NCBI GenBank assembly: GCA_947561395.2
Contig: OX387193.1
Coordinates: 28,824,276 to 28,888,275, forward strand
Origin: Buxus sempervirens
Lineage: Eukaryota; Streptophyta; Magnoliopsida; Buxales; Buxaceae
DNA length: 64,000 nt
Direction: 5' to 3'
Shown one piece after another: positions 11,281 through 34,494 of the stretch. The stretch's first letter is position 1; every line of letters begins with the position of its first letter. The translations under genes and the position numbers were made by a program. The notes under the pieces were generated by a model. That model was not told where the DNA came from and did no database searches. It worked only from the letters and a program-made list of their open reading frames with translations.

Positions 11281-11286
11281 TTTATA
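11281..11286 (-). promoter_or_regulatory. TATA box of antisense gene 1
   Basis: TATAAA on the minus strand lies about 107 bp upstream of the ATG at 11174 and 13 bp downstream of the palindrome array 11299-11440. The spacing suits a leader of roughly 75 nt. Confidence 0.6.
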
Positions 11287-11298
11287 GCATCTTTTAAC

Positions 11299-11440
11299 GT
11301 ATCCGGTAACTCAGACCGGATACAAAAGGCTTTAGTAATATCCGGATAAGTATACCGGATACAAAGGATGCCATGAGTATCCGGTATGACATACCGGATA
11401 CAAAGACCAATCAATGTATCCGGTATGTCAGACCGGATAC
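11299..11440. promoter_or_regulatory. Four 25-bp palindromes at 39-bp spacing upstream of antisense gene 1
   Basis: Palindromes of the form GTATCCGG-N9-CCGGATAC start at 11299, 11338, 11377 and 11416. The period is exactly 39 bp (25-bp unit plus 14-bp spacer). The third unit is perfect over 12+1+12 bases. The array ends 13 bp from the TATA box. The same array is found in the U3 of the A- and B-type LTRs, so it looks like a shared operator. Confidence 0.85.
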
Positions 11441-11636
11441 CAAGGAAAAATGCAAAAAAGAGCTAAGGATGAAAAAATCCGAATTTTTATCTGTTTTACC
11501 TGCTTACATGTCATATTTGCTAGAAATTGAAAACAAAAGATGTACAAGACAAGAGAAAATGAATAAAAACATTCTTTTATATATAAGTCTCATTTGTACA
11601 AGTGATAATGGAAAAAACAGGAATCCTAATCTACTG

Positions 11637-14338
11637 CTACTGTGCAGGATCATCCCCGCGACCTCTGCCTCGTCCTCCTCTACGACCTCTCCCCCGAGAT
11701 GATCGGCGCCTATAGTAGGACAGTAGACGCTCCGCCATGTAGCGTGGTCTCCGTCCTATGAAGGACGGAAGCTGGTACTCGATGCAGTAGTCCGATGTAT
11801 CAGGGGAAGGGACAGGGACAGAATCAGAAGAAGCCTCTGGCTCAACAGCAACCGGCCCAGCTGGGACCTCATCCATAGCAGGCTCTGCTCCCGCAGCTCC
11901 AGAAGGCCCGGCATCAGAAGAAGGGCCAGGATCAGAAATATCTGTACCAAATGGGAAAAAAATCAGGAATTGGGATACTAAAATGAATAAAAGAGAAGAA
12001 ACTAAGAAAAACATACCAGCAGGCACTATGGGGTCCGGATCCACTGGGTCAGCAGCAGGGACCTCCTCCGGCTCAGGAACCATCACTGGAGATGAAGGAT
12101 CAGCAGATGGGACATCCACAGGATCCGTAGCCCGAGCAGGAGACGGGTCAGGAATGAGGAAATCAGGCTCGAAGGCAGCATCTTGATCTGGGACCGGGCC
12201 CTGCACAAGGCAAACAAGCACATCAGAATAGCAGAAATAGAAAAATGAAAGAAATGAAAATACGAGAAGGCCAGATACCTGTGTAGCCTGGAGCTCAGCA
12301 ACTAAGGCCTCCAGCTCCCTGATCCGGGCATCCTGCTGGGCCACGACCGCATCGTGCTCCGTGATCATATCATCGATCGCAGCCCGCTGGCTCTCGAACC
12401 AATCCCGAATGGTATTCAACTCGTGTACCTGCCAGCAAGAACAGAAGAAGGGTCAGAAATGCATAAGGGAGAAAAAGGGAATAAAAATAGGAAGAGTACA
12501 AGGTTTACCGTGTCCTCATGAATCCGGATACGGATCCCACCGATCTCTGTCACCCCGGCACGAGTGGGTCGATCCATCAAGCATCCTATAGATACCCGCT
12601 GGAACCACTCGTCGTAATCTCCAGCTACTGTGAGCCCCTCTGCATCCAGGAAGTGATCAAACTGATCAACATCAAAACCCGGGAGGAGTGTGTCGGGACC
12701 CACAGGAGGAGGAGGGACGGGGATGCGAAGTGCGCTGGTGTGCTGGAAGTACAGGCGCTCTCCTAAGTACATCACCCTACCAAGCCTCCCGAGGAAGCAC
12801 TGGTAGGGCTGACGTCGTCGATCTCTATCGAAGGCGTCCTATACCGCCATCTCACGAGCCACTCCAACATCCACGTCATCAAATCGGGACAGGAGGAGCT
12901 GCAAAAAAGGAAACAGTCAGGTACAGTCAAGATAGAGGAAAGGAAATAAAAGAAAGATAGAGGACTTACATCATATCGGCGGGCACGGTCTAAGTGCACC
13001 CGGGCAGTGCGAGGCTGGCTCCTATCAGCATCTCGAACCTGGGCCGACCATCGCAGGGCCACAGGGAAATCCGCAACCTCAGGAACCGGGGAGGGGCGGA
13101 AGAAGGTCATATAGGTGTACATGAACACCTAGCAAAAGAAAAATCAGCCAAGAAAATTTGAAAGCCTAAGGAATTAAACCAGGCAGATGAATTCAATACC
13201 TGCAGAATCTGCCAGAAGGACTGGCTGCTGACTTCATCACCCCTCGGGGATGCCAGGCCTCGAACCGCTCGGCACAACCCGGCTAGGATGGTCCCATAGA
13301 TGAGCCGACCCCATGCTAGCTGGCGGGTCTGATGGAAATCTCTCAAGGCGTCCAAAAAGAGCGGACTGACGCCAGTCGTATCCTCCGGAAAAAAGCAGCT
13401 CCCAAGCATCAACAGGAAAACATGTCGGAAGATCGGTGCAAAGGCTGCATCCTCCACAGAGACGGTCGCATGTCTCCTCTCAAAATGACGAGCCAGACTC
13501 TCCCGTAGCCAACTAATGGAGAGCCGGCCACTCCGCCCATCCCAAGCAGCAGGTGGCAGGGCCTGATATCCCAGAAGGAGGCCGATGTCTTCCGCAGAAG
13601 GTCGCTCCAAGACAAGGGTCCGCCCCGTCAAGGGAATGCCGGTAATCATCGCAAAATCCGAGGGGCGGATCCCCAGCTCCACGTCCGGCAGATGGAACGA
13701 CTGAGTCTCTGGGAAATATCTCTCCATCATGGCAAAAATTAGTGGACGGTCGGCTCTGAATGATGGAATGCTGAGGAAGTGATCCAGGTGGCACCTCCCA
13801 AACTCCCGCCTGAGTGCCGGGGAAAGCGACTGAGCTAACTCACTAAATCTGCCTCAGCTGCCTCGCAGATGGGAAGAATGATATGGAAGCGGCACATCTG
13901 CCCTGATGCACATGGAGGGGTGGCTATCCAAGCCACGGAGGAGCTCTGTATCATGCACAGAGGCCCTCAACTCCTCAGAAACTCCTGCCAGGGCTACAGC
14001 AACCCCCTCCTGAGCCGTATCTCTGGCTCTGCCTCGGCCTCTCTCGCCCTCAGGGGCCTGATCCTGAACCCGGCCTCTACCTCTGCCTCGACCCCGAGCC
14101 GGTGCAACCACGGGCTAAAATTCAAGAGAAAGATGTGAAGGTTGTGTGGGAAAGGAGAATAGAAGATAGAAGAAAGAAAGAAAATTTTTTGAAAGCCTAC
14201 CTCAGCAGAGCTCTCTCTGGAGTCACCTAATGGCTCAGACAAGGTGGCACTGGAACTCGCCTCTGTCCGAGCCCGCGAACTGGAGGGCTGATCGGCAGGG
14301 TCAGCCTCCTCTCTAACTCAGGAACGACTCCTAGCCAT
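11637..14338 (-). pseudogene. Antisense gene 2 of element A: PMD-like protein with RG-rich tails, seven exons, three stops
   Basis: The exons are 14338-14201, 14114-13200, 13128-12970, 12898-12509, 12428-12279, 12200-12017 and 11941-11637. All have GT/AG borders and the frame is kept, 747 codons in all. The start ATG directly follows an acceptor AG at 14340-14339. Features in order: a Ser-rich N-terminus; an Arg-Gly-rich segment; a PMD-like domain (for example DFAMITGIPLTGRTLVLERP and AWGRLIYGTILAGL) ending in FWQILQ at the exon 2 border; a coiled coil (RIRELEALVAELQATQ); an acidic Pro/Asp-rich stretch; and a C-terminal RGRG-rich basic tail. Stops at codon 7 (TGA), 13854-13856 (TGA) and 12839-12841 (TAG) break it. 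All fit single C-to-T changes. The RG tails suggest nucleic-acid binding. The function is not established. Confidence 0.7.
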
Positions 14339-15440
14339 CTACACAGGGAAGTGTTTTACGAATTTCAAAGTTGGCTTTGCTTACAGTTCACATCCAATTT
14401 TACATGATTATTTTTCAAAATTATCGTGAATTATGGAATACTTCTGTTTCTAATCCTAAAGCATTTTCTAAAAGATTCCTACAGTACTTGACATTTCTTG
14501 TGTATTATGGTTCCAGGAAATGAGAAGAGGGAAGGCCAAGGTATCAAAGGCAGGCAGAATTACAGAAATCCAGATTGTACAGTCAATTAAGGAAAATCAC
14601 AGCAGAATGCAAAGTGAGCAGAAGCTCTCAATCCCGGAAATACTAAAGCTAGAAAACATGCAAGTAACAGATCACCACCAGCATGCAAATCAGGATTCAA
14701 GTCAAATTTTTGTAGCATGGTATAACTACTGGCAGGCAATCTGAAGTCAGATCATAGGAATTGGCAGAATCAAGTTGGAAGTCGAAGCCAATTGGAATAG
14801 CATGAAAATAAACCATTCGGTCAGAATTCCTCATCAGCAACAATTCCAATTCATGCAAGTGACAATCATCACAAAAATCGAAGCATAGCAATCATGATTG
14901 GGCAATTGCAACATCAAACTCAAATTTTGCAGAAATTCAAGAATAAGGCAAGCATTCCATTCAATGTCTATTTCGACACAAACAGTGGAGGAATTAGCAA
15001 GTGTTTGCAAAAAACCCAGTCCAACCAACAATCATGATAGAATATGGCCATTCGATAGGGAAGCTAAAAAAAATTTTTTTTTGCTGTTTGGGCCGAGTAA
15101 GGCACTCACCTGTTGAATGAAGAAGCAAGCACCTAATTGCAAGCGGGTAAATCGGATTGGTGGAAAATCAGTCGCGCAAGTTCGGAGGAAATCGCCGGAG
15201 ACCTTTGCTCCAATGCCAAGGTGAAGAATCACCGGAAATCAGGAAGGAAACCGAGCTAGCTAGGGCTTGTAATGGGCGATCACCGAAGTCGCCGGAGTTG
15301 CAGGTCGTCGTCGGCAGCAATAGGAGACACCGGAGTGGCTGGAGATCGCCGGAGAAGCAGGACGAGTCGTGACAGTCGGGGATGAAGGCCTGTGGCCGGT
15401 CTTTGTAATCGGGGAAGAAAGAAGAGAAGGGGGAAAGTCG
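14339..15440 (-). other. 5' leader of antisense gene 2 with a leader intron
   Basis: Reading the minus strand from the TATA-like box near 15450, a leader exon ends at 15110 with donor CAG|GTGAG. The acceptor GTGTAG at 14344-14339 joins straight to the ATG at 14338. The leader exon is rich in CCGGCGA motifs (15150-15370). No other gene is seen here on either strand. Confidence 0.5.
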
Positions 15441-15447
15441 CGCGCGA

Positions 15448-15526
15448 CTTATAAAACCCCGGGTATCCGGTCACTCAGACCGGATACAAGCGAGCCCTTG
15501 CTTATCCGGATACACCTACCAGATAC
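15448..15526 (-). promoter_or_regulatory. Promoter of antisense gene 2: TATA-like box plus two palindromes
   Basis: A TTTATAA box on the minus strand (about 15448-15455) lies directly downstream of two GTATCCGG-N9-CCGGATAC-type palindromes at 15463-15487 and 15502-15526, again 39 bp apart. This is the same layout as antisense gene 1, but with two units instead of four. Positions matching units 3 and 4 have been replaced by purine-rich low-complexity DNA. Confidence 0.65.
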
Positions 15527-15527
15527 C

Positions 15528-15712
15528 AAAGAAAAAAAATATAGAGAAAAACAGGAAAAAAACAGAAAAAATAGAGAAAAAACAGAGAAAAATAGAAAAA
15601 AAGAAGAAAAGAAAAAGAAGAAAAAGGAAAAAAAATAGAAAAAAAAAGAGAAAAAAAGAAAAAAGAAGAAGAAGAAGAAAAGAAAAAAAGGAAAAAAAGA
15701 AAAAAAGCAAAC
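15528..15712 (+). repeat. A/G-rich low-complexity tract
   Basis: This is an almost pure purine run made of GAAAAA-type repeats. It gives open frames of Lys/Glu on one strand and Phe/Leu on the other, which are not genes. It could form triplex or nucleosome-poor DNA. It directly abuts the truncated palindrome array. Confidence 0.85.
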
Positions 15713-16100
15713 TTGTGCTATAATTCTTACTATTTTCTCAAAATCCTATTTTTGTCTTGAAATCCACCTCACAGCCACCAGAGCCCTGTGGAATTTGGGA
15801 CAACCTTGGGAAATGTGCCTGGTCAAAAGGATGATATCCACTCAATTTTCAACTTGGTTTGATAAAAAATCAGTTTTTCAAAAAAATCCTATTTTTGGGC
15901 TTAAAATCCACTTCATAGCCACGGGAGCTCAGTGGAATTTAAGAATTATTGCAGAAATGCCCCCCTTAAAATTAGGGCTTTTTGGCAAATCTCCACTCAA
16001 AAATTGTTTTCTACAAAATTGAATTGAACCGAGCAAATCATGCTCAAGGGAATGCAATTTGGGCTTGTCTACTCTTTGCAGCTCACTACTTCACAGCTCC
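15713..16100. other. 3' untranslated region of element A
   Basis: No gene is seen. The sequence includes two related segments about 120 bp apart (15740-15800 and 15860-15930: TTTTTGTCTTGAAATCCAC and TTTTTGGGCTTAAAATCCAC). It leads to the polypurine tract. Confidence 0.5.
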
Positions 16101-16116
16101 CGCAAAGAGGGGCAGT
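16101..16116 (+). promoter_or_regulatory. Polypurine tract of element A
   Basis: CGCAAAGAGGGGCAGT directly precedes the LTR start TGTAGACACC. This is the plus-strand DNA primer during reverse transcription. The same purine motif (GCAAAGAGGGG, minus strand) adjoins the 3' LTR of element B at 21332-21346. Confidence 0.8.
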
Positions 16117-18429
16117 TGTAGACACCCCAAATTGCACAAACAATCATCAAAAATCATTATCTCCTGGGAAGCCAGCACAGAAATTGAAGAAAATAAACAT
16201 TTACCTGTATTCGGATACTCAGGCCGGATACAAGTACTCCTTCCTGTATCCGGATACTCATACCGGATACATGTGAGCCTTAGTGTATCCGGTACCATGT
16301 ACCGGATACCTTAAGGCCCTTTTTTATCCGGTCTGATATACCGGATACTTTAAGTTTGCTCAAAATTAGGGTTTTCCGAGAGAAATCACTTGTTACCATC
16401 ATGTCCCTCATTAAATGAGGGGAAATCTCGGAAATAACCTTAGGGTTAAGGTTGGGGGGGTTCTAGACGTTAAGTTGTGTCTACCAATGACCTTAGCCTT
16501 TGCCTATAAATAGGAGCCTCCTCCTTGAGCAAATAGGAACTGAACTCTTGTTTTGAATTCTCGCAAAGAAGAACTCCAAGAGAAGAAGAAAACCGCTGCG
16601 GAATCGCCTCCCGAACTCAGGTAAGCCTCAACTTTTCTTTTTATTTTCTGTCTTTACATTCCTAGATCTAGATCTCTTCTTCTACCTTTCTGTAGTGTAA
16701 AGCCTTGTTTGTATGTGTGGAAATCCTTCCCCGGCTCAAAGTATCTCGAGACTCCCCCTAGCCGTAAAACGTGGAGGCGGGATCTAGGAGAAACGAGACT
16801 GGGGATTGACCCTAGTGCTAGAACCCATGTAGCATAAGGACTTTTTGATTGATTGTAGACCGTTCCATATTCAAAGTACCCTTGATTATCTTGAAGAACC
16901 GTGTTTAACGGGGAGAGAGAACAGAGGGAAACGATAATGGAATGGAACCCTAGGCTGTCTTAGAACCCTATTTGGATGAATATGTATGCATGCTATTGAT
17001 CTTGTTTGGCTTTTTACACTTGCACATACATATCACTATTTTGGCGGGATAGGCTCATATTTGGGGTTTATTACATTCATTGTGATAAATCTCAAATAAA
17101 TGGCCTCAATCAATTCTGGAATGCCTTTTGGATGATTTTTAAAGTATTTGGGTTCATCTTGCACGAATCACACATGTTTATCAATTTTCGGATTTGGTTT
17201 TACTCAAAAATGGCTTAGCTTGACAGCACCTGTACCCTTACTTCGGACGCCCATAACTTCATCATCCGGATGAATTTTGGGGCGATTTTAGAACCATGGG
17301 AAAGGTGAGGCTGTCTAGTTTATGTCCACCAAATTTCACAAATTTCTATCTAGCGGATTTTTGACACCTCTCTGTCGAAGTTGAGTGGACAGTTCAGGTT
17401 CAAGTACAGAACTTGTCATTTCGACGGACCGCCATGTGTTCGTTTTAAGTCCGATTCGAGTGATTTTTATTTCTGAGTACTCCTTTATGAGTCTACTTTC
17501 AAATCCAGTTGGTTTCATAATTTTTGGATTCCATTTGAATTATTGGTAGCCGATTTACTCAGAACTGTTCATTTGTACTTTTCTGGGTAAATCTGTGATC
17601 TTCGGGGCCTGTTCGGGAGACCATCTAAGGCACATCCGAAGGGATTTTTGTATGAGGCTAGTCTCTGTTGAAATATGGCCATATAGACTTATATCACACC
17701 AAATTTCGTGGATGTTTATGTAGTGGATTTTTCTAGACAATTTTCCAAATTTGCCCACTTACCACTTTCAAAAATCCCCAGCAGCAACTTCAAAGGAGCA
17801 TAACTCCTAGATTTTTCATCGGAATGAAGTGAAATTTAGCATGAGACTCTTATTTACCCTAATCTTTCAAATGGATTTGGTTTCGTTCAATTTAGAATTG
17901 GATTTGAATGATTTCAAGGCAAATGGCATACTTTTCACCGAATTTTCCGGATTTGATTTAACTTGGTTTTAAGCAACTTGAGATTTGGATTTCTATCTTT
18001 TGAGATATTCCAGAAATGATATTGACATAAGAGAGGATCTAAAATCCATTTGGATCTTCATGTGAATATATCATACACTTGTTCCTTTTTCAAGGCTTTT
18101 TCATGATTTTTAGCAAGCTTCTTATTTTCTTTTTTAGCATGAACATACACTTGGCAACCACTTCGTGTGGATGAATGGGGGTGCCTAACACCTTCCCCCG
18201 TTCATAATCTAATCCCCTTACCCATCTCTGGATTTGATTTTCAAGTAGGGTTATTTTTACCCTAGAATTTGCCTTTTAGCACTTTTTGCTATTTTTGCTT
18301 ATTTTTAATTCTTTTGGTGTCCATTCTCACCTCAAAATTCTGAATGGTGACGACTCTCCCAACTTTATTTTGAGCCCCGTGTGTTGACGGAGGGATGATC
18401 ACTCCGGTGATTTTTTCCCATGTCTCACA
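16117..18429 (+). mobile_element. A-type LTR, 2313 bp
   Basis: It starts TGTAGACACCCC and ends CATGTCTCACA, with a polypurine tract before it. It is followed 2 bp later by a primer binding site (18432-18449), so it serves as the right LTR of A and also as the left LTR of a further lost copy. Inside are the four-palindrome array 16207-16348, a TATA box CTATAAATAG at 16504-16513, a transcribed segment with splice donor CAG|GTAAGC after 16620, and a long U5 with the conserved end GGTGCCTAACACCTTCCCCC. Confidence 0.9.
16207..16348. promoter_or_regulatory. Four-palindrome array in the U3 of the A-type LTR
   Basis: The units start at 16207, 16246, 16285 and 16324, exactly 39 bp apart. Each has the form GTATCCGG-N9-CCGGATAC with one or two changes. 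The third unit is a nearly perfect palindrome around CAT. The array lies about 155 bp upstream of the LTR TATA box. Confidence 0.88.
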
Positions 18430-18532
18430 ACTGGCGACTCTGCTGGGGATTTTTAAAAGTGGTAAGTGGGCAACTTTGGAAAATTGTCTAGAAAAATCCA
18501 CTACATAAAATCAAAACATTCCCCAGCAGAGT
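18430..18532. repeat. Head-to-head LTR junction with a primer binding site
   Basis: The primer binding site TGGCGACTCTGCTGGGGA (18432-18449) matches the 3' end of plant tRNA-Arg(ACG), with two mismatches by my recollection of that tRNA. After it the sequence jumps, at a shared TGCTGGGGA, into the middle of LTR sequence (18450-18510). It then runs into an inverted, truncated primer binding site (18520-18532) that meets the inverted B-type LTR. No target duplication is seen here. Confidence 0.7.
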
Positions 18533-21331
18533 CGTGAGACATGGGAAAAATCACCGGAGTGATCATCCCTCCGTCAACACACGGGGCTCGAAATAAAGTT
18601 GGGAGAGTCGCCACCATTCATAATTTTGAGGTGAGAATGGACACCAAAGATTCAAAAGTAGGCAAAAATAGCCAAAAGACAAACTCTAGGGTAAAAATAA
18701 CCCTACTTGAAAATCAAATCCAGAGATGGGTAAGGGGATTAGATTATGAACGGGGGAAGGTGTTAGGCACCCCCATTCATCCACACGAAGTGGTTGCCAA
18801 GTGTATGTTCATGCTAAAAAGAAAATAAGAAGCTTGCTAAAAATCATGGAAAAGCCTTAAAAAAGGAACAAGTGTATGATATATTCACATGAAGATCCAA
18901 ACGGATTTTAGATCTTCTCTTATGTCAATATCACTTCTGGAAAATCTCAAAAATTGGAAATCAAAGCACAAGTTGCTCAAAAAACAAAGTTGAATCAAAT
19001 CCGGAAAATTCAGTAAAAAGTATGCCACTTGCCTTGAAATCATTCAAATATCATTTTAAATTGAACCAAACCAAATCCATTTGAAAGATTAGGGTAAATG
19101 AGAGTCTCATGCAAAATTTCACTTCATTCTGATAAAAAACCTAGGAGTTATGCTCCTTTGAAGTTGCTGCTGGGGATTTTTAAAAGTGATAAGTGGGCAA
19201 ATTTGGAAAAATGTCTAGAAAAATCCACTTCATAAAAATCCACGAAATTTGGTGTGATTGAAGTCTGTATGGCCATCTTTCAACAGAAACTAGCCTCATA
19301 CAAAAATCCCTTCGGATGTGCCTTGGATGGTCTCTCGAACAGGCCCCAAAGATCACATATTTACCCAGAAAAGTACAAATGAACAGTTCTGAGTAAATTG
19401 GCTACCAATAATTCAAATGGAATCCAAAAATTATGAAACCAACTGGATTTGAAAGTAGACTCATAAAGTAGTACTCAGAAATAAAATTCACTCGAATCGG
19501 ACTTAAAACGAACACATGGCGGTCCGTCGAAATGACAAGTTCTGTACTTGAACCTGAACTGTCCACTCAACTTCGACAGAGAGGTGTCAAAAATCCGCTA
19601 GATAGAAATTTGTGAAATTTGGTGGACATAAACTAGACAGCCTCACATTTCCCATGGTTCTAAAATCGCCCCAAAATTCATCCGGATGATGAAGTTAGGG
19701 GCGTCCGAAGTAAGGGTACAGGTGCTGTCAAGCTAAGCCATTTTTGAGTAAAACCAAATCCGAAAATTGATAAACATGTGTGATTCGTGCAAGATGAACC
19801 CAAATACTTTAAAAATCATCCAAAAGGCATTCCAGAATTGATTGAGGCCATTTATTTGAGATTTATCACAATGAATGTAATAAACCCCAAATATGAGCCT
19901 ATCCCGCCAAAATAGTGATATGTATGTGCAAGTGTAAAAAGCCAAACAAGATCAATAGCATGCATACATATTCATCCAAATAGGGTTCTAAGACAGCCTA
20001 GGGTTCCATTCCATTATCGTTTCCCTCTGTTCTCTCTCCCCGTTAAACACGGTTCTTCAAGATAATCAAGGGTACTTTGAATATGGAACGGTCTACAATC
20101 AACCAAAAAGGCCTTATGCTACATGGGTTCTAGCACTAGGGTCAATCCCCAGTCTCGTTTCTCCTAGATCCCGCCTCCTCGTTTTACGGCTAGGGGGAGT
20201 CTCGAGATACTTTGAGCCGGGGAAGGGTTTTCACACACAAAGAAGGCTTTACACTACAGAAAGGTAGAAGAAGAGATCTAGATCTAGGAATGTAAAGACA
20301 GAAAATAAAAAGAAAAGTTGAGGCTTACCTGAGTTCGGGAGGCGATTCCGCAGCGGTTTTCTTCTTCTCTTGGAGTTCTTCTTTGCGAGAATTCAAAACA
20401 AGAGTTCAGTTCCCTTTTGCTTAAAGAGGAGTCTCCTATTTATAGGCAAAGGTTAGGGTTAGGGTTGGTGAGAATGGTAGACACAACATAATGTCTATAG
20501 CCCACCAACCTTAACCCTAAGGCTATTTCCGAGATTTCCCCTCATTTAATGAGGGATATGATGGTAAAAGTGAAAAGCTCTCGGAAAACCCTAATTTTGA
20601 GCAAAACTAGCGTATCCGGCATGTCAGGCCGGATACACAAGTACCTTAATGTATCCGGTCTATGATGCCGGATACACTGAGGTCTACTTGTATCCGGCAT
20701 TGTCCACCGGATACAAAGAAGGACACTTGTATCCGGCCTGAGTTGCCGGATAAAAGGAAAAAAGCCTTTTTTTCGAATTTTAACACAGGCAATACTTATT
20801 TGCATGTAATATCGTTTAAGTAAATGTCCTCGTATTTTTTAATCTCCATTTACTTAAGATATTACATGTAAATAAGCAAACACCCCCCCCCCCCCCATTT
20901 GAATCCATTAAAAATAGTTCCAGACCCAAATTCCAAGTGAATAAAAAGTCAACTTTCCAGTTCTAGGCAAAATTCCGATTTTTCAGGTCTGGAAAAAAGG
21001 TTCAATATGTTAAAACCAAGGTATTCGCCAAGATTTAAAATCTCAAAAAATTCTTTTATGCAATAACATGGCTAAAAACCTGATTACCGGGAAAAATTAT
21101 CTTGAAATCTGGCTTTAAAAAATATTTCATTTTCTGGGGTCAAAAGTCAACAAAATTCAACCAGAAAAAGTTTGACCTTGCACAAAAGATTGAATTCGGG
21201 CCTTTTCCTTTTCCATTTTGGATTCAAATGGGTTAAGTATCTCAAACCCAATGCAAAGAATTGGAAATTCCAATAAAATGTTTCTCTCCTTCAAGATTTA
21301 TCAAAAATCATGCAATTTTGGGGTGTCTACA
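18533..21331 (-). repeat. 3' LTR of element B, 2799 bp
   Basis: It is oriented minus, from TGTAGACACCCC at 21331 to TCTCACG at 18533 (last bases altered). It contains the palindrome array 20612-20753, a telomere-like TTAGGG run at 20451-20468, a TATA box at 20436-20445 and a donor CAG|GTAAGC after 20329. It matches the other LTR over its whole length, including the C14/C13 homopolymer near 20885. Confidence 0.92.
20612..20753. promoter_or_regulatory. Four-palindrome array in the U3 of the B 3' LTR
   Basis: The units start at 20612, 20651, 20690 and 20729, exactly 39 bp apart, with consensus GTATCCGG-N9-CCGGATAC. The middle nine bases differ from those of the A-type LTR while the arms are kept. 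The last unit ends TAA instead of TAC. Confidence 0.88.
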
Positions 21332-21346
21332 GCTACCCCTCTTTGC
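21332..21346 (-). promoter_or_regulatory. Polypurine tract of element B
   Basis: On the minus strand, GCAAAGAGGGGTAGC directly precedes the LTR start TGTAGACACCCC. It closely resembles the tract of element A at 16101. Confidence 0.8.
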
Positions 21347-24321: not shown

Positions 24322-26460
24322 TTAAGGGGGTTTCTTTTTAGAGAATAAGGGAATTTGAAAATTGCCCCTGTTCTCAAAGGCAAAAGCTAACTTTTCTTTC
24401 TTTTTCAGAAAATTTCTTTCTTCTGCTGAGTGAGGCAAGTTTCTCTTTTCATGATTTGGGATGATCCCCTTCTCTGGGGTATTGTGCTCAGTTTCTGAAA
24501 GAAGTGACATTCCTTGATACGGAATCTGGATAGCAGCCCAGTCAATATATGGCAGCTTAAACCTGACCTCAATCTTTTCTTTTAAATCTTCTTCTTTCTT
24601 TTCTTGGGATTCTTCCTCTTCAATTACCTTTGCTTCATTTCCTTCTTGTATGAAGAGTGATTCCATACCCTTCAGATAATCATTATCATCCATACTGAAT
24701 TCTTGTTCAACATCCCGTGCTATGCCATTTGTTTGCTCAAACTGCTCAAATGGAATTGTTTGCACTTCCTTTGCCCTTTCACCTGTCATTTCATTTTCTT
24801 TCACCTTCGGCTTAAAATCTGCCCCTGTGTGAGTCTCTTTCTCCACATGGCCCCCTTCATCTTCTTTTTCAAAATAAACCTGGACTGTGGTACCAACCGG
24901 AGCAATAAGTTGAGAAGGGTCAAATCTTCTTTTTCCTGAAAAAATTGACCCTATTGCATTTGAGCTGCTTGCCCCATTGTTGCTGGTGGGAGGAGGAGTG
25001 GGTGTGACTGAATTGAATGATAAAGAGTTATTATCCAGCAAATCCTGAATTGCATGTTTTAGGGCCAAGCAACGATCTGTGGTATGCCCTGGAGTGCTCA
25101 TATGATACTCACAGATTGCAGATAGATCATAACCCTTCCCCTTGCTTGCATGAGGATTTGGCAACCTCAAAGTCACATAACCCTTTTGAAGTAGGGTAGG
25201 CAAAAGTTCAGATGGTCGCATAGGCAGTTTTGAAAACTCCCTTCTCTTCCTTACTTCTGTTTCCTCCTTCACAGGCTGTGCAGAAGGGACATTAATTTGG
25301 ATAGGCAGCAAAGGAACTGGATGGGCATTGGCTTGAAAGGGTCCCTTGGGAAGCTGCACCATATTCACTTCTGCTTCTCTCCTTTCCTCAGATTTTTTCT
25401 TTCCATTTCCATTTCCCTTGTTATGAATGGAGTCTTGTTGACTGACCAGGGCGGAATAATCAATTATCTTGCCAGATTTGATCCCATCCTCAATCCGGTC
25501 TGCCACCTGTACCAGGGCAGCAAAATTGGTGGTGATCTGACCCACCAGATGATTGTAGAAGGGCTGCCCCAGCGTACCCATGAATGTTGAGATCATTTCA
25601 GGTTCCAGCATAGGCGGCCTGACCTGAGAGGCAGCCTCTCTCCACCTCTTGGCATATTGCCGCACAGATTCATCTTTGCCCTTGCTCATCCTCATAATGT
25701 CGTACCGGTCTGGCACGATCTCCGAGTTAAATTTGTATTGGTCTAAGAAGGTGTCTGCCAGATCCTTCCATCCTCTAATCTTCCCATGATCAACTGTGGC
25801 GAACCACCTAAGAGCCGATCCTGTCAAACTCCTCTGAAAGAGTTGGATCAATATGCCGTCATCCCGGCCAAACTGGCACAAAGCCCCGCAGTATAGTTTC
25901 AAATGGCTCATAGGGCAGCCTGTGCCGTCGAACTTGTCGAAGTCCGGGCACTTGAACTTGGCCGGTAGACATACGTCAGGATACATGCACAGATCCTTGA
26001 AATTGGTGCCTCCATAGCTATTTCCCCCTTTCACTTCTTTCAGTTCTTCCTGGATCCTTTCTATCCTGAGCAGCATTTTCCTTTCAGTTTCTTCCCTGGC
26101 TTTTTCCTTCTCCAGTTCTTTCTCGGATTCTGCTATATTTTCCCTGATCAGAATGGGTTCAGGGACTGGTTCAGAAATGGGCTCAGGCATGGGTTGAGCC
26201 GGAGGCGGAATGTAGGCCTGAGGTGGTGGTGCTTGATGGGAAGTCGATGCTTGGTTTTGGGCCTGGGCCTGTTGGGCCAGAGCCGCCAGTAGGTCTCCCA
26301 GCATCTTGGCCAGACCAGCCACTTGCTCCTGCAGCTGAGCAAAGTCTTGAGCGGGTACGGCGGCTTGGGCTTGATTCTCTTCAGTGTTCATAGCTCTGGC
26401 TTTGGATCTGGTCACGGGAGCAATGATTGCAAATAAGTGTACCTGGATAAGGAAAAGCAA
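24322..26460 (-). CDS. gag: gag of element B, intact ~700-residue frame
   Basis: The frame is open for 712 codons. By comparison with A, translation probably starts at the internal ATG for MNTEENQ (26391). Features in order: a Gln/Pro-rich N-terminus; the gag domain (LPAKFKCPDFDKFDGTGCP, then LTGSALRWF); a basic segment; a knuckle of form C-x2-H-x5-H-x4-C near codons 430-450; then an acidic tail. The last ~80 residues (from LPYIDWAAIQIP) resemble the protease-pol linker of A (LPFIDWATVKIP). Gag is therefore fused in frame to a downstream linker after deletion of the protease. It could supply particle protein while relying on another element for enzymes. The stop-free state, against three stops in A, suggests recent origin or selection. 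Confidence 0.88.
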   Translation of the reverse strand: MLFLIQVHLFAIIAPVTRSKARAMNTEENQAQAAVPAQDFAQLQEQVAGLAKMLGDLLAALAQQAQAQNQASTSHQAPPPQAYIPPPAQPMPEPISEPVPEPILIRENIAESEKELEKEKAREETERKMLLRIERIQEELKEVKGGNSYGGTNFKDLCMYPDVCLPAKFKCPDFDKFDGTGCPMSHLKLYCGALCQFGRDDGILIQLFQRSLTGSALRWFATVDHGKIRGWKDLADTFLDQYKFNSEIVPDRYDIMRMSKGKDESVRQYAKRWREAASQVRPPMLEPEMISTFMGTLGQPFYNHLVGQITTNFAALVQVADRIEDGIKSGKIIDYSALVSQQDSIHNKGNGNGKKKSEERREAEVNMVQLPKGPFQANAHPVPLLPIQINVPSAQPVKEETEVRKRREFSKLPMRPSELLPTLLQKGYVTLRLPNPHASKGKGYDLSAICEYHMSTPGHTTDRCLALKHAIQDLLDNNSLSFNSVTPTPPPTSNNGASSSNAIGSIFSGKRRFDPSQLIAPVGTTVQVYFEKEDEGGHVEKETHTGADFKPKVKENEMTGERAKEVQTIPFEQFEQTNGIARDVEQEFSMDDNDYLKGMESLFIQEGNEAKVIEEEESQEKKEEDLKEKIEVRFKLPYIDWAAIQIPYQGMSLLSETEHNTPEKGIIPNHEKRNLPHSAEERNFLKKKEKLAFAFENRGNFQIPLFSKKKPP

Positions 26461-26635
26461 AGAAACATGTCAGCTCCCATTTAATCTGAGTCACACACCT
26501 ATAAATGTAGATAAGTGGGTTAGGTGAACACAAGTCCGGATTTATTTGTTTGTTTTTTTTTTATATTTTTCCATTTTTTGTTTTTTTTTGTTGGAATATT
26601 TTAGGGCTTCCAAAGGTCCCAAAGAATGAGAAATG

Positions 26636-27581
26636 TCTAAAATTCAGAGGCTTTTAGACGGCCAAAAGGATACGTGTCTATAATTCAGAGGCTTATAGAC
26701 GGCCCAAAAAGGTTGTGTCTAAAATTCAGAGGCTTTTAGATGGCCCAAAGGATATATGTCTATAATTCAGAGGCTTATAGACGGCCCAAAAAGGTTGTGT
26801 CTAAAATTCAGAGGCTTTTAGATGGCCCAAAAAGGTTGTTTCTAAAATTCAGAGGCTTTTAGATGGCCCAAAGGATATGTGTCTATAATTCAGAGGCTTA
26901 TAGACGGCCCAAAGGTTGTTTCTAAAATTCAGAGGCTTTTAGATGGCCCAAAGGATATGTGTCTATAATTCAGAGGCTTATAGACGGCCCAAAAAGGTTG
27001 TTTCTAAAATTCAGAGGCTTTTAGACGGCCCAAAATAGGTTGATGTTTGAAATTCAGAGGCTTTCAAATGGCCCAAAAAAGTTGTGTCTAAAATTCAGAG
27101 GCTTTTAGACGGCCCAAAAAAGGTTGATGTTTGAAATTCAGAGGCTTTCAAATGACCCAAAAAAGATGTGTCTAAAATTCAGAGGCTTTTATACGGCCCA
27201 AAGAGGTTGTGTCTAAAATTCAGAGGCTTTTAGACGGCCCAAAGGATATATGTCTATAATTCAGAGGCTTATAGACAGCCCAGAATAGGTGAATGTTTGA
27301 AATTCAGAGGCTTTTAGACGGCCCAAAGGATATATGTCTATAATTCAGAGGCTTATAGACAGCCCAGAATAGGTGAATGTTTGAAATTCAGAGGCTTTCA
27401 AATGGCCCAAAAATATTGTGTCTAAAATTCAGAGGCTTTTAGACGGCCCAAAATAGGTTGATGTTTGAAATTCAGAGGCTTTCAAATGGCCCTAAAAAGT
27501 TGTGTCTAAAATTCAGAGGCTTTTAGACGGCCCAAAATAGGTTGATGTTTGAAATTCAGAGGCTTTCAAATGGCCCAAAAA
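26636..27581 (-). repeat. ~41-bp tandem hairpin repeats (23 units) in the leader of element B
   Basis: There are 23 units of 38-44 bp, each centred on TTCAGAGGC flanked by complementary 7-base arms. Three arm pairs alternate: TCTAAAA/TTTTAGA, TCTATAA/TTATAGA and TTTGAAA/TTTCAAA. All but two units (near 27185 and 27300) keep perfect pairing, although the stem sequences differ. The loop resembles that of the adjoining 76-bp repeat. Confidence 0.9.
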
Positions 27582-28228
27582 AGTTTGACTTTGAGTGGTA
27601 CTCGTGACCAAACAAAGGTTTTTGGAATATTCTGAGGCTTCCAAGTGTCCCACAAATGTTTTGATTTGATTGATAAAAATAACCAACCAAAGGTTTCTTG
27701 GAATATTCTAGGGCTTCCAAATGTCCCACAAATGCTTTGATTTGATTGATAAAAATAACCAACCAAAGGTTTCTTGGAATATTCTAGGGCTTCCAAGTAT
27801 CCCACAAATGTTTTGATTTGATTGATAAAAATAACCAACCAAAGGTTTCTTGGAATATTCTAGGGCTTCCAAGTGTCCCACAAATGTTTTGATTTGATTG
27901 ATAAAAATAACCAACCAAAGGCTTTCATGGAATATTCTAGGGCTTCCAAGTGTCCCACAAATGTTTTGATTTGATTGATAAAAATAATCAACCAAAGGCT
28001 TCTTGGAATATTCTAGGGCTTCCAAGTGTCCCACAAATGTTTTGATTTGATTGATAAAAATAACCAACCAAAGGTTTCTTGGAATATTCTAGGGCTTCCA
28101 AGTGTCCCACAAATGTTTTGATTTGATTGATAAAAATAACCAACCAAAGGTTTTTGGAATATTCTGAGGCTTCCAAAGGTCCTAAAATTTTTGACTTTGA
28201 TTGATAAAAATAACCAACCAAAGGTTTC
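27582..28228 (-). repeat. 76-bp tandem repeats in the leader of element B
   Basis: About eight copies of the same 76-bp unit as in element A, inverted. Each carries the hairpin CTTGGAA / TTCCAAG. One unit near 28150 has TTTGGAA / TTCCAAA, again preserving the pair. The loop TATTCTAGGGC grades into TATTCTGAGGC at both ends of the array, linking it to the 41-bp family. Confidence 0.9.
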
Positions 28229-28535
28229 TCTCTTCTGAATTTTCTCAGTTTTCAAATGCAAAAGCTTGATTGAAATATGTTTGAGTTGAATTGGTATCAA
28301 AAAATATGACACCTTGGTTCCTTCTTTGGGTTTCAAAATTAGGTCAAATCTTGAAAGAATATTTTATTTTATTTTATTTTATTTTTATTTTTTGTCTTTT
28401 TCTTTTGTTTTTGATTTTGTATTTCTGGAACATTTCTTATGTTCTTTTCGGGGTGCCTAAGGATTATCCACAGTGTTTTAGGCATTTTATTCTGAAAATT
28501 TGGGCTGAAAAGCCAATTTGTGCATTTTTTTGAAC

Positions 28536-28677
28536 GTATCCGGTATAATATACCGGATAAGAATATGCCTTATTGTATCCAGTCACCCTAACCAGATACA
28601 CGCATATGTCTTTGTATCCGGAAATACATACCGGATATGAATAGAGTTGTTATTAACCGGCCTGAGTTGCCGGTTAT
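28536..28677. promoter_or_regulatory. Four-palindrome array in the leader of element B
   Basis: The units start at 28536, 28575, 28614 and 28653, exactly 39 bp apart. They are more degraded than the LTR arrays; the last has TTAACCGG / CCGGTTAT. No TATA box or gene is obvious next to it, so it may be the relic of a lost antisense-gene promoter or a copied LTR fragment. Confidence 0.75.
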
Positions 28678-30038
28678 TGCCGAAATGGCCCTTTTTGACT
28701 CATTTTTTCACCCGATTAGTTTTTTTTCATTCCCAATTGATGTTCACCTCAATTTGACCTTCAAAACTTGCCCCAAATTGGGCTTGGACATCATACTTGC
28801 AAAATTCCCTAAATTTAGGAAAAGAACATGGCTTTACCTTGCCACCTTGTATTACCTTCATTCAATATGGTATTCACATTATACCTTGGCCTGCAAAACA
28901 TGCAAACGGCCTTCCCACATTTACACCCAATTCCCCAAATGCAATTGTGTGCTTTTAGCCGAAAACGTGTTTCTCCACCTTCAAGCGTATGGTTTTTGGG
29001 TTTTGGCTTAATTGGCAACTTAGAACTCAAGTCTAGTAATGCCCGGAATCGAATCACAGATCCCATTGTCATCACATCATTGACTCAAATTCTAAGGTAA
29101 ATGTTTTCACTTTCGCTTTCCGAAGTCCCGACCTCGGTGCGCCAAGCTACACACATTCATGGTTCAACTTCCTAATAGGTAAAGGGTAGGCTGTGCAAAT
29201 TGTTTCAAGTGCTCAAGTGCAATTTTAAATTGTGGTAACATTCACAACGTCCCAGCCCCTTGCCACTCTTTTTCGTAGCCATGCATTCAATTTCAAGCCA
29301 AGGTACATATGACAAAAATAATGAAGCTAAATACAAGCAAGCAAGCACCAAAACAACTAAATATGCACAAAAAATATTACATGCCCAAAAAGTGGTATAC
29401 AAAATATGTTATTTGTACAAACAACAATTAAATCATGTAAGCATGCTTGAAACCCAAAAGCATTCCTAAAATTCCAGATTTCATGCTCTTTTTCATGCTC
29501 AAAGTGTACCATTTTTACCCAAATTGGAGCCTAAAATTTTAGCACTACTTGACATGATACAAGAAAGGTTTTGATCATATAAACATGCTTGAAAACCCCC
29601 AAGTATACACCGAAATTTCCAGATTTTTTGTTCTTCATTTTTTTGTGCTCAAATGACATTGTTTTATGCCCAAATTCAAGCCTAAAAATTTAATACTTAA
29701 CATATGGCACAAAAAGGTTTGAATTGGGGGGAGAACATGTTTGGGAATCCCAAAAATATACATTGTTACTGGATTTTTGCATTTTATTTTCATGCTCAAA
29801 ACATGGCACTAAAAACAAACTCCTAAAACAAGGCACCCAAAAACAAGTAGGCATGCACAACAAGGTAAGACCGTAAACATGATCCTAAGCATAATCCAAT
29901 CATATACACATGTCTTTATCAATGTAAAATTTAAAAGCATTCCAATCAGATTTAGAATACAACAATATAAGCAAAATAGCAAGCATTCTAAAGTGAAGAA
30001 AAAGCATGAAAATACACAAAATGGCTTAAATCCACAAG
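28678..30038. other. Leader of element B between primer binding site and palindrome array
   Basis: No gene is seen on either strand; short open frames lack any recognisable motif. Three segments near 29430, 29575 and 29740 repeat a pattern (AACATGCTTGAAA..., AATTTCCAGATTTTTT...) about 150 bp apart, suggesting decayed tandem repeats. Confidence 0.5.
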
Positions 30039-30056
30039 TCCCCAGCAGAGTCGCCA
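30039..30056 (-). promoter_or_regulatory. Primer binding site of element B (tRNA-Arg type)
   Basis: TGGCGACTCTGCTGGGGA on the minus strand lies 2 bp inside the 5' LTR end at 30059. It is complementary to the 3' end of plant tRNA-Arg(ACG), with two mismatches from memory. tRNA-Arg priming is typical of Tat/Ogre elements. Confidence 0.8.
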
Positions 30057-30058
30057 GT

Positions 30059-32857
30059 TGTGAGACATGGGAAAAAATCACCGGAGTGATCATCCCTCCG
30101 TCAACACACGGGGCTCAAAATAAAAATGGGAGAGTCGCCACCATTCATAATTTTGAGGTGAGAATGGACACCAAAGATTCAAAAGTAGGCAAAAATAGCC
30201 AAAAGACAAACTCTAGGGTAAAAATAACCCTACTTGAAAATCAAATCCAGAGATGGGTAAGGGGATTAGATTATGAACGGGGGAAGGTGTTAGGCACCCC
30301 CATTCATCCACACGAAGTGGTTGCCAAGTGTATGTTCATGCTAAAAAGAAAATAAGAAGCTTGCTAAAAATCATGGAAAAGCCTTAAAAAAGGAACAAGT
30401 GTATGATATATTCACATGAAGATCCAAATGGATTTTAAATCTTCTCTTATGTCAATATCACTTCTGGAATATCTCAAAAATTGGAAATCAAAGCACAAGT
30501 TGCTCAAAAAACAAAGTTGAATCAAATCCGGAAAATTCAGTAAAAAGTATGCCACTTGCCTTGAAATCATTCAAATATAATTTTAAATTGAACCAAACCA
30601 AATCCATTTGAAAGATTAGGGTAAATGAGAGTCTCATACAAAATTTCACTTCATTCTGATAAAAAACCTAGGAGTTATGCTCCTTTGAAGTTGCTGCTGG
30701 GGATTTTTAAAAGTGATAAGTGGGCAAATTTGGAAAATTGTCTAGAAACATCCACTACATAAAAATCCACGAAATTTGGTGTGATTGAAGTCTGTATGGC
30801 CATCTTTCAACAGAAACTAGCCTCATACAAAAATCCCTTCGGATGTGCCTTGGATGGTCTCTCGAACAGGCCCCGAAGATCACAGATTTACCCAGAAAAG
30901 TACAAATGAACAGTTCTGAGTAAATTGGCTACCAATAATTCAAATGGAATCCAAAAATTATGAAACCAACTGGATTTGAAAGTAGACTCATAAATTAGTA
31001 CTCAGAAATAAAAATCACTCGAATCGGACTTAAAACGAACACATGGCGGTCCGTCGAAATGACAAGTTCTGTACTTGAACCTGAACTGTCCACTCAACTT
31101 CGACAGAGAGGTGTCAAAAATCCGCTAGATAGAAATTTGTGAAATTTGGTGGACATAAACTAGACAGCCTCACCTTTCCCATGCTTCTGAAATCGCTCCA
31201 AAATTCATCCGGATGATGAAGTTAGGGGCGTCCGAAGTAAGGGTACAGGTGCTGTCAAGCTAAGCCATTTTTGAGTAAAACCAAATCCGAAAATTGATAA
31301 ACATGTGTGATTCGTGCAAGATGAACCCAAATACTTTAAAAATCATCCAAAAGGCATTCCAGAATTGATTGAGGCCATTTATTTGAGATTTATCACAATG
31401 AATGTAATAAACCCCAAATATGAGCCTATCCCGCCAAAATAGTGATATGTATGTGCAAGTGTAAAAAGCCAAACAAGATCAATAGCATGCATACATATTC
31501 ATCCAAATAGGGTTCTAAGACAGCCTAGGGTTCCATTCCATTATCGTTTCCCTCTGTTCTCTCTCCCTGTTAAACACGGTTCTTCAAGATAATCAAGGGT
31601 ACTTTGAATATGGAACGATCTACAATCAATCAAAAAGGCCTTATGCTACATGGGTTCTAGCACTAGGGTCAATCCCCAGTCTCGTTTCTCCTAGATCCCG
31701 CCTCCACGTTTTACGGCTAGGGGGAGTCTCGAGATACTTTGAGCCGGGGAAGGGTTTTCACACACAAAGAAGGCTTTACACTACAGAAAGGTAGAAGAAG
31801 AGATCTAGATCTAGGAATGTAAAGACAGAAAATAAAAAGAAAAGTTGAGGCTTACCTGAGTTCGGGAGGCGATTCCGCAGCGGTTTTCTTCTTCTCTTGG
31901 AGTTCTTCTTTGCGAGAATTCAAAACAAGAGTTCAGTTCCCTTTTGCTTAAAGAGGAGTCTCCTATTTATAGGCAAAGGTTAGGGTTAGGGTTGGTGAGA
32001 ATGGTAGACACAACATAATGTCTATAGCCCACCAACCTTAACCCTAAGGCTATTTCCGAGATTTCCCCTCATTTAATGAGGGATATGATGGTAAAAGTGA
32101 AAAGCTCTCGGAAAACCCTAATTTTGAGCAAAACTAGCGTATCCGGCATGTCAGGCCGGATACACAAGTACCTTAATGTATCCGATCTATGATGCCGGAT
32201 ACACTGAGGTCTACTTGTATCCGGCATTGTCCACCGGATACAAAGAAGGACACTTGTATCCGGCCTGAGTTGCCGGATACAAGGAAAAAAGCCTTTTTTT
32301 CGAATTTTAACACAGGCAATACTTATTTGCATGTAATATCGTTTAAGTAAATGTCCTCGTATTTTTTAATCTCCATTTACTTAAGATATTACATGTAAAT
32401 AAGCAAACACCCCCCCCCCCCCATTTGAATCCATTAAAAATAGTTCCAGACCCAAATTCCAAGTGAATAAAAAGTCAACTTTCCAGTTCTAGGCAAAATT
32501 CCGATTTTTCAGGTCTGGAAAAAAGGTTCAATATGTTAAAACCAAGGTATTCGCCAAGATTTAAAATCTCAAAAAATTCTTTTATGCAATAACATGGCTA
32601 AAAACCTGATTACCGGGAAAAATTATCTTGAAATCTGGCTTTAAAAAATACTTCATTTTCTGGGGTCAAAAGTCAACAAAATTCAACCGGAAAAAGTTTG
32701 ACTTTACACAAAAGATTGAATTCGGGCCTTTTCCTTTTCTGTTTTGGATTCAAATGGGTTAAGTATCTCAAACCCAATGCAAAGAATTGGAAATTCCAAT
32801 AAAATATTTCTCTCCTTCAAGATTTATCAAAAATCATGCAATTTTGGGATGTCTACA
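30059..32857 (-). repeat. 5' LTR of element B, 2799 bp
   Basis: It runs from TGTAGACATCCC at 32857 to CTCACA at 30059. It contains the palindrome array 32139-32280, a telomere-like run at 31978-31995, a TATA box CTATAAATAG (minus) at 31963-31972, and splice donor CAG|GTAAGC after 31856. It matches the 3' LTR with scattered point changes. Confidence 0.92.
32139..32280. promoter_or_regulatory. Four-palindrome array in the U3 of the B 5' LTR
   Basis: The units start at 32139, 32178, 32217 and 32256 (39-bp period). The array is identical to the 3' LTR array apart from TCCGAT for TCCGGT in unit 2 and an intact last base triplet in unit 4. Confidence 0.88.
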
Positions 32858-32935
32858 GCTGAAAATTATGCACAAATTGGCTCATCTTATTTGCAGGAGC
32901 AAGTGGCCGAGTTAAAATCCGGAATTATCCAAGTT
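32850..32935 (+). pseudogene. Scrap of a gag-like N-terminus at the edge of element B
   Basis: On the plus strand the frame MSTAENYAQIG...SSYLQEQVAELKSGI resembles the gag N-terminus of A (MNTEEHQAQA...TQLQEQVAGLAKM). Its first codons overlap the last 8 bases of the LTR (ATGTCTACAGCT). Recombination at that short identity probably joined the two. After ~85 bp it passes into A-type LTR sequence. Confidence 0.5.
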
Positions 32936-34494
32936 TGTATGGCCATCTTTCAAAAGAAACTAGCCTCATACAAAAATCCCTTCGGATGTGCCTTGGGTGG
33001 TCTCCCGAACAGGCCCCGAAGAAAAAAAATTTACCCAGAAAAGTACAAATGAATAGTTCTGAGTAAATCGGCTACCAATAATTCAAATGGAATCCAAAAA
33101 TTATGAAACGAACTGGATTTGAAAATAGACTCATAAAGGAGTACCCAGAAATAAAAATCACTCGAATCGGACTTAAAACGAACACATGGCGGTCCGTCGA
33201 AGTGACAAGTTCTGTACTTGACCCTGAACTGTCCACTCAACTTCGACAGAAAGGTGTCAAAAATCCGCTAGATAGAAATTTGTGAAATTTGGTGGACATA
33301 AACTAGACAGGCTCACCTTTCGCATGGTTCTGAAATCGCCCCAAAATTCATCCGGATGATGAAGTTATGGGCGTCCGAAGTAAGGGTACAGGTGCTGTCA
33401 ATCTAAGCCATTTTTGAGTAAAACCAAATCCGAAAATTGATAAAAATGTGTGATTCGTGCAAGATGAACCCAAATACTTTAAAAATCATCCAAAAGGCAT
33501 TCCAGAATTGATTGAGGCCATTTATTTGAGATTTATCACAATGAATGTAATAAACCCCAAATATGAGCCTATCCCGCCAAAATAGTGATATGTATGTGCA
33601 AGTGTAAAAAACCAAACAAGATCATGCATATAGATTCAACAAGATAGGTTCTAGCATAGCCTAGGGTTCCGTTCCATTATCGTTTCCCTCTGTTCTCTCT
33701 CCCCGTTAAACACGGTTCTTCAAGATAATCAAGGGTACTTTGAATATGGAACGGTTTACAATCAATCAAAAAGGCCTTATGCTACATGGATTCTAGCACT
33801 AGGGTCAATCCCCAGTCTCGTTTCTCCTAGATCCCGCCTCCACGTTTTACGGCTAGGGGGAGTCTCGAGATACTTTGAGCCGGGGAAGGGTTTTCACACA
33901 CAAAGAAGGCTTTACACTACAGAAAGGTAGAAGAAGAGATCTAGATCTAGGAATGTAAAGACAGAAAATAAAAAGAAAAGTTGAGGCTTACCTGAGTTCG
34001 GGAGGCGATTCCGCAGCGGTTTTCTTCTTCTCTTGGAGTTCTTCTTTGCGAGAATTCAAAACAAGAGTTCAGTTCTATTTGCTCAAGGAGGAGGCTCCTA
34101 TTTATAGGCAAAGGCTAAGGTCATTGGTAGACACAACTTAATGTCTAGAACCCCCCCAACCTTAACCCTAAGGTTATTTCCGAGATTTCCCCTCATTTAA
34201 TGAGGGACATGATGGTAACAAGTGATTTCTCTCGGAAAACCCTAATTTTGAGCAAACTTAAAGTATCCGGTATATCAGACCGGATAAAAAAGGGCCTTAA
34301 GGTATCCGGTACATGGTACCGGATACACTAAGGCTCACATGTATCCGGTATGAGTATCCGGATACTGGAAGGAGTACTTGTATCCGGCCTGAGTATCCGG
34401 ATACAGGTAAAAGTTTATTTTCTTCAATTTCTGTGCTGGCTTCCCAGGAGATAATGATTTTTGATGATTGTTTGTGCAATTTGGGGTGTCTACA
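32936..34494 (-). repeat. Truncated A-type LTR (first ~1560 bp)
   Basis: On the minus strand it starts TGTAGACACCCCAAATTGC at 34494 and follows the A-type LTR (16117 onward) until about TATGGCC at 32936, where it is cut. It keeps the palindrome array (units at 34263, 34302, 34341 and 34380; 39-bp period), the TATA box near 34100 and the splice donor near 33990. Confidence 0.85.
34263..34404. promoter_or_regulatory. Four-palindrome array in the truncated A-type LTR
   Basis: The four 25-bp units are spaced 39 bp apart. They are nearly identical to the array 16207-16348 read on the other strand. Confidence 0.85.

Follow-up and report, generated by a model that had tools for sequence, protein, structure and literature searches.

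The binding motif of TnpA, a protein of the transposon Spm, is repeated. TnpA activates the methylated element (PMC10398659), and in the Arabidopsis VANDAL transposons the element-encoded VANC proteins act on short motifs repeated in noncoding DNA; these motifs vary from one related family to another and have co-evolved with the protein (PMC5735166, PMC10398659). The Tas/Bel1 protein of foamy viruses binds both the long terminal repeat (LTR) and an internal promoter (PMC517496, PMC4929722). Retand retrotransposons carry antisense open reading frames (ORFs) with TRP28 between pol and the 3' LTR, which are predicted DNA binders and suggested regulators of the element (PMC11963269), and the PMD-A clades of the PMD domain are described as encoded by Gypsy elements alone (PMC5418596, PMC7156037). 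For PMD itself, Ikeda et al. regard the function as still to be determined (PMC5418596). The locus considered here is a 64-kb stretch of Buxus sempervirens DNA (contig OX387193.1, positions 28,824,276-28,888,275; "the window"), from one genome of 676.5 Mb, in which LTR retrotransposons (elements A and B) carry arrays of a palindrome, termed alpha, in their LTRs and, in element A, before two antisense genes for PMD-type proteins. What is new is that the palindromes at these places differ in related families of this genome. The arrays are interpreted, with a probability of about 0.62, as operators of a retrotransposon-encoded dimeric DNA-binding regulator, most likely an antisense PMD-type protein.

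A first-pass annotation of the window had claimed seven alpha arrays, and all are present where it placed them. They hold 26 units of the form GTATCCGG-N9-CCGGATAC, always 39 bp apart from start to start within an array; the 16 arm bases are perfect in 15 units, with one mismatch in eight, two in two and four in one. The arrays and the two antisense genes are:

9479..11174, minus strand: antisense gene 1, two exons (11174-10467 and 10372-9482; 236 and 297 amino acids), DUF7745/PMD
11299..11440, minus strand: alpha array of antisense gene 1, four units at a 39-bp pitch, ending 12 bp before TATAAA (11281-11286)
11637..14338 (span of the first-pass annotation), minus strand: antisense gene 2, analysed in the pieces 14090-13857, 13730-13200 (PMD) and 12838-12509
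15463..15526, minus strand: alpha array of antisense gene 2, two units, TTTATAA at 15449-15455
16207..16348, plus strand: alpha array in the 3' LTR of element A, four units, about 90 bp into the LTR
20612..20753, minus strand: alpha array in the 3' LTR of element B
28536..28677, minus strand: degenerate alpha array in the element B leader, in which one unit has symmetric TAACCGG arms
32139..32280, minus strand: alpha array in the 5' LTR of element B
34263..34404, minus strand: alpha array in an additional LTR (similarity over 32931-34494)

Chance is excluded, because the exact palindrome occurs 20,444 times in the genome and its reversed-pattern control not once; N9 is the spacing in 20,444 of the 20,703 alpha arm pairs that lie 0-30 bp apart genome-wide (98.7%). 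The arrays had been assigned to LTRs and antisense promoters, which is right for most of them, but the one at 28536 lies in the leader before gag of the minus-strand element B. Its unit at 28653-28677 has both arms changed to TAACCGG/CCGGTTA, as do L016:7213 and L019:806, so that three elements share the variant. A stray alpha-like unit stands at 9638, within gene 1, and unit 32178 also fits the alpha-prime palindrome (see below) at one mismatch.

How far does this arrangement extend to other copies? Two sets of loci were compared. The first, L006-L019, comprises the left neighbour of the window and 19 of the 21 clusters of arrays listed for contig C1; the second, L020-L049, consists of the 30 best among 131 scored gene-1 matches (from 6,925 candidates), hence near relatives, and includes the window locus as L020. 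Paired LTR arrays lie 20.1-20.7 kb apart in five elements on C1; identity between the two LTRs of an element is 99.4-100% over compared stretches of 758-1,746 bp, so these elements inserted recently. In all five the LTR array has four units and starts 90-92 bp into the LTR; a conserved CTATAAATAG follows about 156 bp on, and then a splice-donor-like CAGGTAAGC. The array precedes the LTR TATA box, as first described, in all six LTRs aligned. The TATA-like boxes reported beside both antisense arrays are confirmed as well, at 12 bp from the four-unit array of gene 1 and a few bp from the two-unit array of gene 2, where the box is TTTATAA or TTTACTTAA. Leader arrays before gag are present in L006, L016 and L019 besides the window.

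Arrays at random places had been named beforehand as evidence against a regulatory circuit. In the window and 14 further loci, most of them chosen for their arrays, flank similarity assigned 34 of 35 arrays to LTR, leader, gene 1 or gene 2, and the remaining one, the two-unit array L018:4609, stands 572 bp beyond an LTR edge, the expected place of a gene-2 promoter. Four units stand upstream of gene 1 in all 30 loci fetched, the window copy included. Variable spacing, another objection named in advance, does occur: all gene-1 intervals are 39 bp at 12 loci, one interval (always the same) is 38 bp at 17, and one locus has an interval of 79 bp; two C1 LTR arrays (L018, L019) have a 38-bp interval too. 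The rules of 39 bp "without exception" and four units per complete array hold only locally, the first being true of the window and the second failing at gene 2, which has two units there and in five of five other elements.

The arms are the conserved part of the array. Among 32 distinct alpha gene-1 promoters (from 35 aligned rows) mean per-site diversity is 0.029 in the arms, 0.092 in the centres and 0.154 in the linkers, and none of 10,000 permutations reached the difference between arms and rest; in the same alignment the upstream flank has 0.07-0.17 and the downstream flank (TATA box, leader, coding) 0.027-0.040. The first-pass contrast of conserved arms and variable centres is sustained in these means, though not in every unit. 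In the beta and gamma families described below, arms differ likewise from the remaining array (beta, n=8, 0.063 vs 0.279, 0 of 10,000 permutations; gamma, n=5, 0.075 vs 0.168, permutation p 0.013). Between different promoters of the window (62 unit pairs, leader unit 28653 with its four mismatches set aside) arms are 92% identical and linkers 38%, compared with 34% after shuffling. Could the arrays be neutral tandem repeats that slippage and gene conversion have spread? Retand-type elements often have tandem repeats (PMC11963269), but here the linkers are unrelated between promoters whose arms agree, and pitch and unit number are nearly fixed, which leaves this explanation scarcely credible.

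Alternatively, the functional unit may be an RNA or DNA hairpin with an 8-bp stem and a 9-nt loop. Perfect inverted repeats would suit it, as would the symmetric change of both arms in one leader unit and in the alpha-prime family and the inverted centre of LTR unit 1 in one element. However, among 108 distinct alpha units, with L001-L005 and L020 excluded, 87 arm changes affect one arm only and two are matched on the other arm; the arms therefore appear to be two half-sites of a dimer rather than a hairpin. Single-arm variants of the outer base are common to many copies. The missing compensating changes mostly refute the hairpin, which is very improbable. Both it and neutral repeats were rejected on the conserved arms, drifting linkers and uncompensated arm changes, and the preference of the first-pass annotation for a dimer-type site fits the same independence of arm changes. 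The outermost arm base is loose, accounting for 51 of the 87 one-arm changes, and the half-site is nearer to TATCCGG. The centre of LTR unit 1 reads ATTGAGTAT in one element (L014:3112) and its exact reverse complement, ATACTCAAT, in others (L008:3839, L010:3585), so the DNA between these arms seems to have been flipped. A second perfect palindrome, CCCTCATTAAATGAGGG, lies between array and TATA box in six of six LTRs aligned (window ~16405-16421).

If the factor is element-encoded, related families may differ in their site, each sharing one site at all its promoters. For 20 of 118 DUF7745 matches, hand-picked for variety (L050-L069), 1.15 kb upstream was read. The beta type (8 of the 20 loci) has up to five CCGTA..TACGG units, 27-28 bp apart and with some arms degenerate, directly before TATATAAAC; the gamma type (five loci) has up to four AACCG..CGGTT units spaced 28/41/28; and the alpha-prime type (L068 only) has four GTATCCGA-N9-TCGGATAC-like units at 39 bp. 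These different operators stand on a homologous promoter, since gene 1 from TATA box into N terminus is 63-80% identical among the four types. The beta consensus CCCGTA-N7-TACGGG and the gamma consensus AACCGY-N9-RCGGTT are each found at the family's own gene 1, gene 2 and LTR. In one beta element, gene 2 has four beta units with up to two mismatches, and another four lie at positions 105/133/160/188 of the LTR; L075, a second beta LTR, likewise has four, at a 28-bp pitch. In gamma, gene 2 has three units at a 39-bp pitch followed by GCATATAAAC, and the LTR five units with one or two mismatches; the gamma stretch L072 lies inside gene 2. The beta LTR sample consists of two fetched copies and that of the window, and alpha-prime is represented by gene 1 only; its LTR was not found, the stretch fetched for it (L073) showing no array. 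At up to one mismatch, all 14 regions compared contained the family's own palindrome and no foreign one. Besides the arrays of the window, a strict de-novo scan for arrays returned only L062, L064 and L068; half-site positions served to set out the remaining beta and gamma arrays.

Beta palindromes number 11,266 across the genome (control 0), with N7 in 99.5% of 11,324 pairs (pair control 89); for strict gamma palindromes the count is 1,914 against 147 in the control. On C1, distances of 9,933 and 12,061 bp separate beta clusters whose internal spacing is identical, as would be expected of LTR pairs. The window itself contains a beta-type array, with CCCGTA-N7-TACGGG-like units at 46871/46899/46927/46955, which the first-pass annotation had missed:

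46767..48562, plus strand: beta solo LTR flanked by the 5-bp direct repeat GTACC, TATAAA at 47175, 92.7% identical to L075 over 770 bp
46871..46973, plus strand: beta array, four units at a 28-bp pitch, 104 bp into the LTR

The families also share a frame. CCG and CGG lie exactly 11 bp apart in all of them (36 cases in 11 promoter regions), and in these regions every other spacing up to 30 occurs at most once, except N24 between alpha units (eight). Across the whole window CCG-N11-CGG occurs 30 times, 23 times in alpha arrays and four times in beta arrays. A fixed frame with changing neighbours is the trace that would be expected of homologous dimers with drifting specificity.

Both antisense genes have a PMD domain, taken here as a match to Pfam PF10536 or PF24924 above the curated cut-off. 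Gene 1 scores 92.4 bits for DUF7745 (cut-off 26, E 3.9e-26) and 69.9 bits for PMD (cut-off 34.9, E 2.8e-19), and the PMD exon of gene 2 scores 43.7 bits (cut-off 34.9, E 2.7e-11). The C-terminal part of gene 1 looks, by eye, like a coiled coil, and gene 2 has an RG-rich tail in ORF 11637-12419. In six copies, the window and five others, the ratio of nonsynonymous to synonymous substitution (dN/dS) lies between 0.06 and 0.23 in exon 1 of gene 1; exon 2 gives 0.16-0.28 in 14 of 15 pairs (0.96 in the other, which has four synonymous changes), and the three pieces of gene 2 give 0.02-0.18. Judged by these ratios, both proteins are kept by purifying selection; some individual copies now have stop codons. 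A protein search with the whole of gene 1 matched three proteins, with protein P0002 as query ten including itself, and with gene 1 residues 20-390 none; a sequence search of the PDB gave no relative at E up to 1. The DUF7745 genes of L050-L054 and L065 are open over most of the domain and have no intron.

Shared, conserved and family-specific sites thus lie at three promoters that are not homologous to one another and, in alpha, the leader, and conserved proteins stand behind two of the three promoters. In the mechanism proposed, a dimer would read each inverted pair CCG-N11-CGG, the bases beside CCG would set family specificity, and several dimers could align on one array. Gene 1 (DUF7745/PMD) is the first candidate for the most likely PMD-type binder, and gene 2 or a mixed complex the second. 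The targets of the factor would be its own promoter, the second antisense gene and the LTR promoter; it could also act in trans on relatives that have lost the genes, and would co-diverge with its sites between families. A circuit run by an element-encoded factor, as the first-pass annotation had suggested, gains in plausibility from the sister families, with their own palindrome at gene 1, gene 2 and LTR, and is consistent with the selection on both antisense genes. Its action would probably be positive, an activator being favored over a repressor by about two to one, because the arrays precede TATA boxes and because near-perfect LTR arrays (at most one mismatch per unit) persist in element B, for which similarity to the pol or antisense coding of element A was looked for and none detected; repressor sites should decay there. 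The factor may counter silencing; CCG can be methylated in both CG and CHG context, so that methylation could control binding.

Several observations weigh against the operator interpretation. In alpha gene-1 promoters the centre of unit 4 matches the arms in conservation (diversity 0.007), and centres of different window promoters are 53% identical against 38% shuffled in the 62 unit pairs. The leader array has no obvious TATA box, six of the 20 DUF7745 genes (L050-L054, L065) have no array within ~1.1 kb, and the units of the gamma LTR are irregularly spaced; gamma LTR and gamma gene 2 come from one element, and beta gene 2 from one. The CCG-N11-CGG core, common to all families, could moreover be read by a single host dimer, the arrays then being host transcription-factor sites that serve as tandem enhancers for the LTR and antisense promoters. 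Tandem boxes are present in the LTRs of tobacco Tnt1 and Tto1. But the flanks of the core change jointly at a family's gene 1, gene 2 and LTR and are conserved within the family, which this explanation accommodates only if each family took another factor of the same geometry; it is unlikely. The arrays might instead be bound by another protein of the element, namely gag or integrase and not PMD, for packaging or integration and not for transcription. The arrays near LTR edges and in the leader would agree with this, but those beside the TATA boxes of the antisense promoters lie far from either, and a gag or integrase role is distinctly improbable.

The remaining parts of elements A and B are:

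4960..8547, plus strand: pol of element A, with reverse transcriptase, two RNase H-type domains and integrase
16117..18429, plus strand: LTR of element A, TATAAATAG at ~16505-16513
18530..32857, minus strand: element B, non-autonomous, LTRs 98.7% identical, gag ORF 24322-26460

In element A the domains RVT_1, RT_RNaseH (465-569), RVT_3 (624-742) and rve are all in one ORF, with gag upstream. A second RNase H domain is a Tat-type feature. Element A has the attributes of Tat-type Ty3/gypsy elements (Tat/Retand/Ogre), namely gag followed by a pol with reverse transcriptase, RNase H, integrase and second RNase H, and antisense ORFs between pol and 3' LTR. Its size is not that of the surveyed Retand lineage, for which LTRs of 315-1,194 bp and internal regions of 7.4-12.9 kb are given (PMC11963269), as against an LTR of ~2.3 kb and 20.1-20.7 kb from LTR array to LTR array in the five elements. 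Both elements have 76-bp tandem repeats before gag (A, 377-1050; B, 27607-28229). At 18430-18535 a stretch resembling a primer binding site (PBS) follows LTR A and an inverted copy leads into LTR B, as if two LTR-PBS ends had been joined head to head. Elsewhere in the window are a hAT transposase C-terminal dimerisation region (35713-36555, E 5.8e-17) and a degenerate tandem array of 22-bp units of GGGGTACCTTAGGTA type (43376-44313). Rfam at gathering scores and a tRNA scan gave no matches in the window.

How does the alpha system relate to those already described? It resembles VANC and Tas in logic and belongs to neither. For Tas we know of no arrays of inverted pairs. Tas belongs to an animal retrovirus, is a sense-strand accessory gene and lacks PMD; the likeness lies in an LTR-element DNA-binding protein on LTR and internal promoter, of which the shared sites are the part seen here. 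With VANDALs the alpha system has in common clustered noncoding motifs, here putative targets, that differ between related families. However, VANDALs are Mutator-like DNA transposons encoding VANC, an unrelated protein, whereas these are LTR retrotransposons with gag-pol and PMD/DUF7745. VANC motifs have one orientation and variable repeats, in contrast to inverted pairs at rigid spacing, and protein and motif are documented to co-evolve where here co-divergence is conjectured; binding and demethylation have been demonstrated for VANC, while here both are hypothetical (PMC5735166, PMC10398659). Spm differs in being a CACTA DNA transposon without LTR, and TnpA is unrelated. The Retand survey, in its accessible sections, names TRP28 and not PMD, describes no such operator arrays and proposes no target site (PMC11963269). 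MAIN and MAIL1 share the PMD domain with the antisense genes but are host proteins in a silencing pathway (PMC5418596, PMC7156037). Literature searches, with subscription papers mostly outside their coverage, turned up no report of such arrays.

The family-specific arrays at LTR and antisense genes suggest that these elements make their own sequence-specific regulator. There is perhaps an even chance that PMD/DUF7745 proteins are an unrecognised class of dimeric, sequence-specific DNA-binding regulators that read CCG-N11-CGG with flanks that change easily, forming a private retrotransposon transcription switch with operator codes mutually exclusive between families of one genome, and sharing descent with MAIN/MAIL1. 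The roles of PMD and of Retand-type antisense genes are described as unknown in the sections consulted (PMC5418596, PMC11963269), and the arrays offer each antisense protein a concrete, family-specific candidate target. If the interpretation is correct, plant LTR retrotransposons would run private circuits with co-evolving protein-operator pairs, as VANDALs do, which would help to explain the side-by-side expansion of several families in one genome and would hint at the origin of a host silencing domain.

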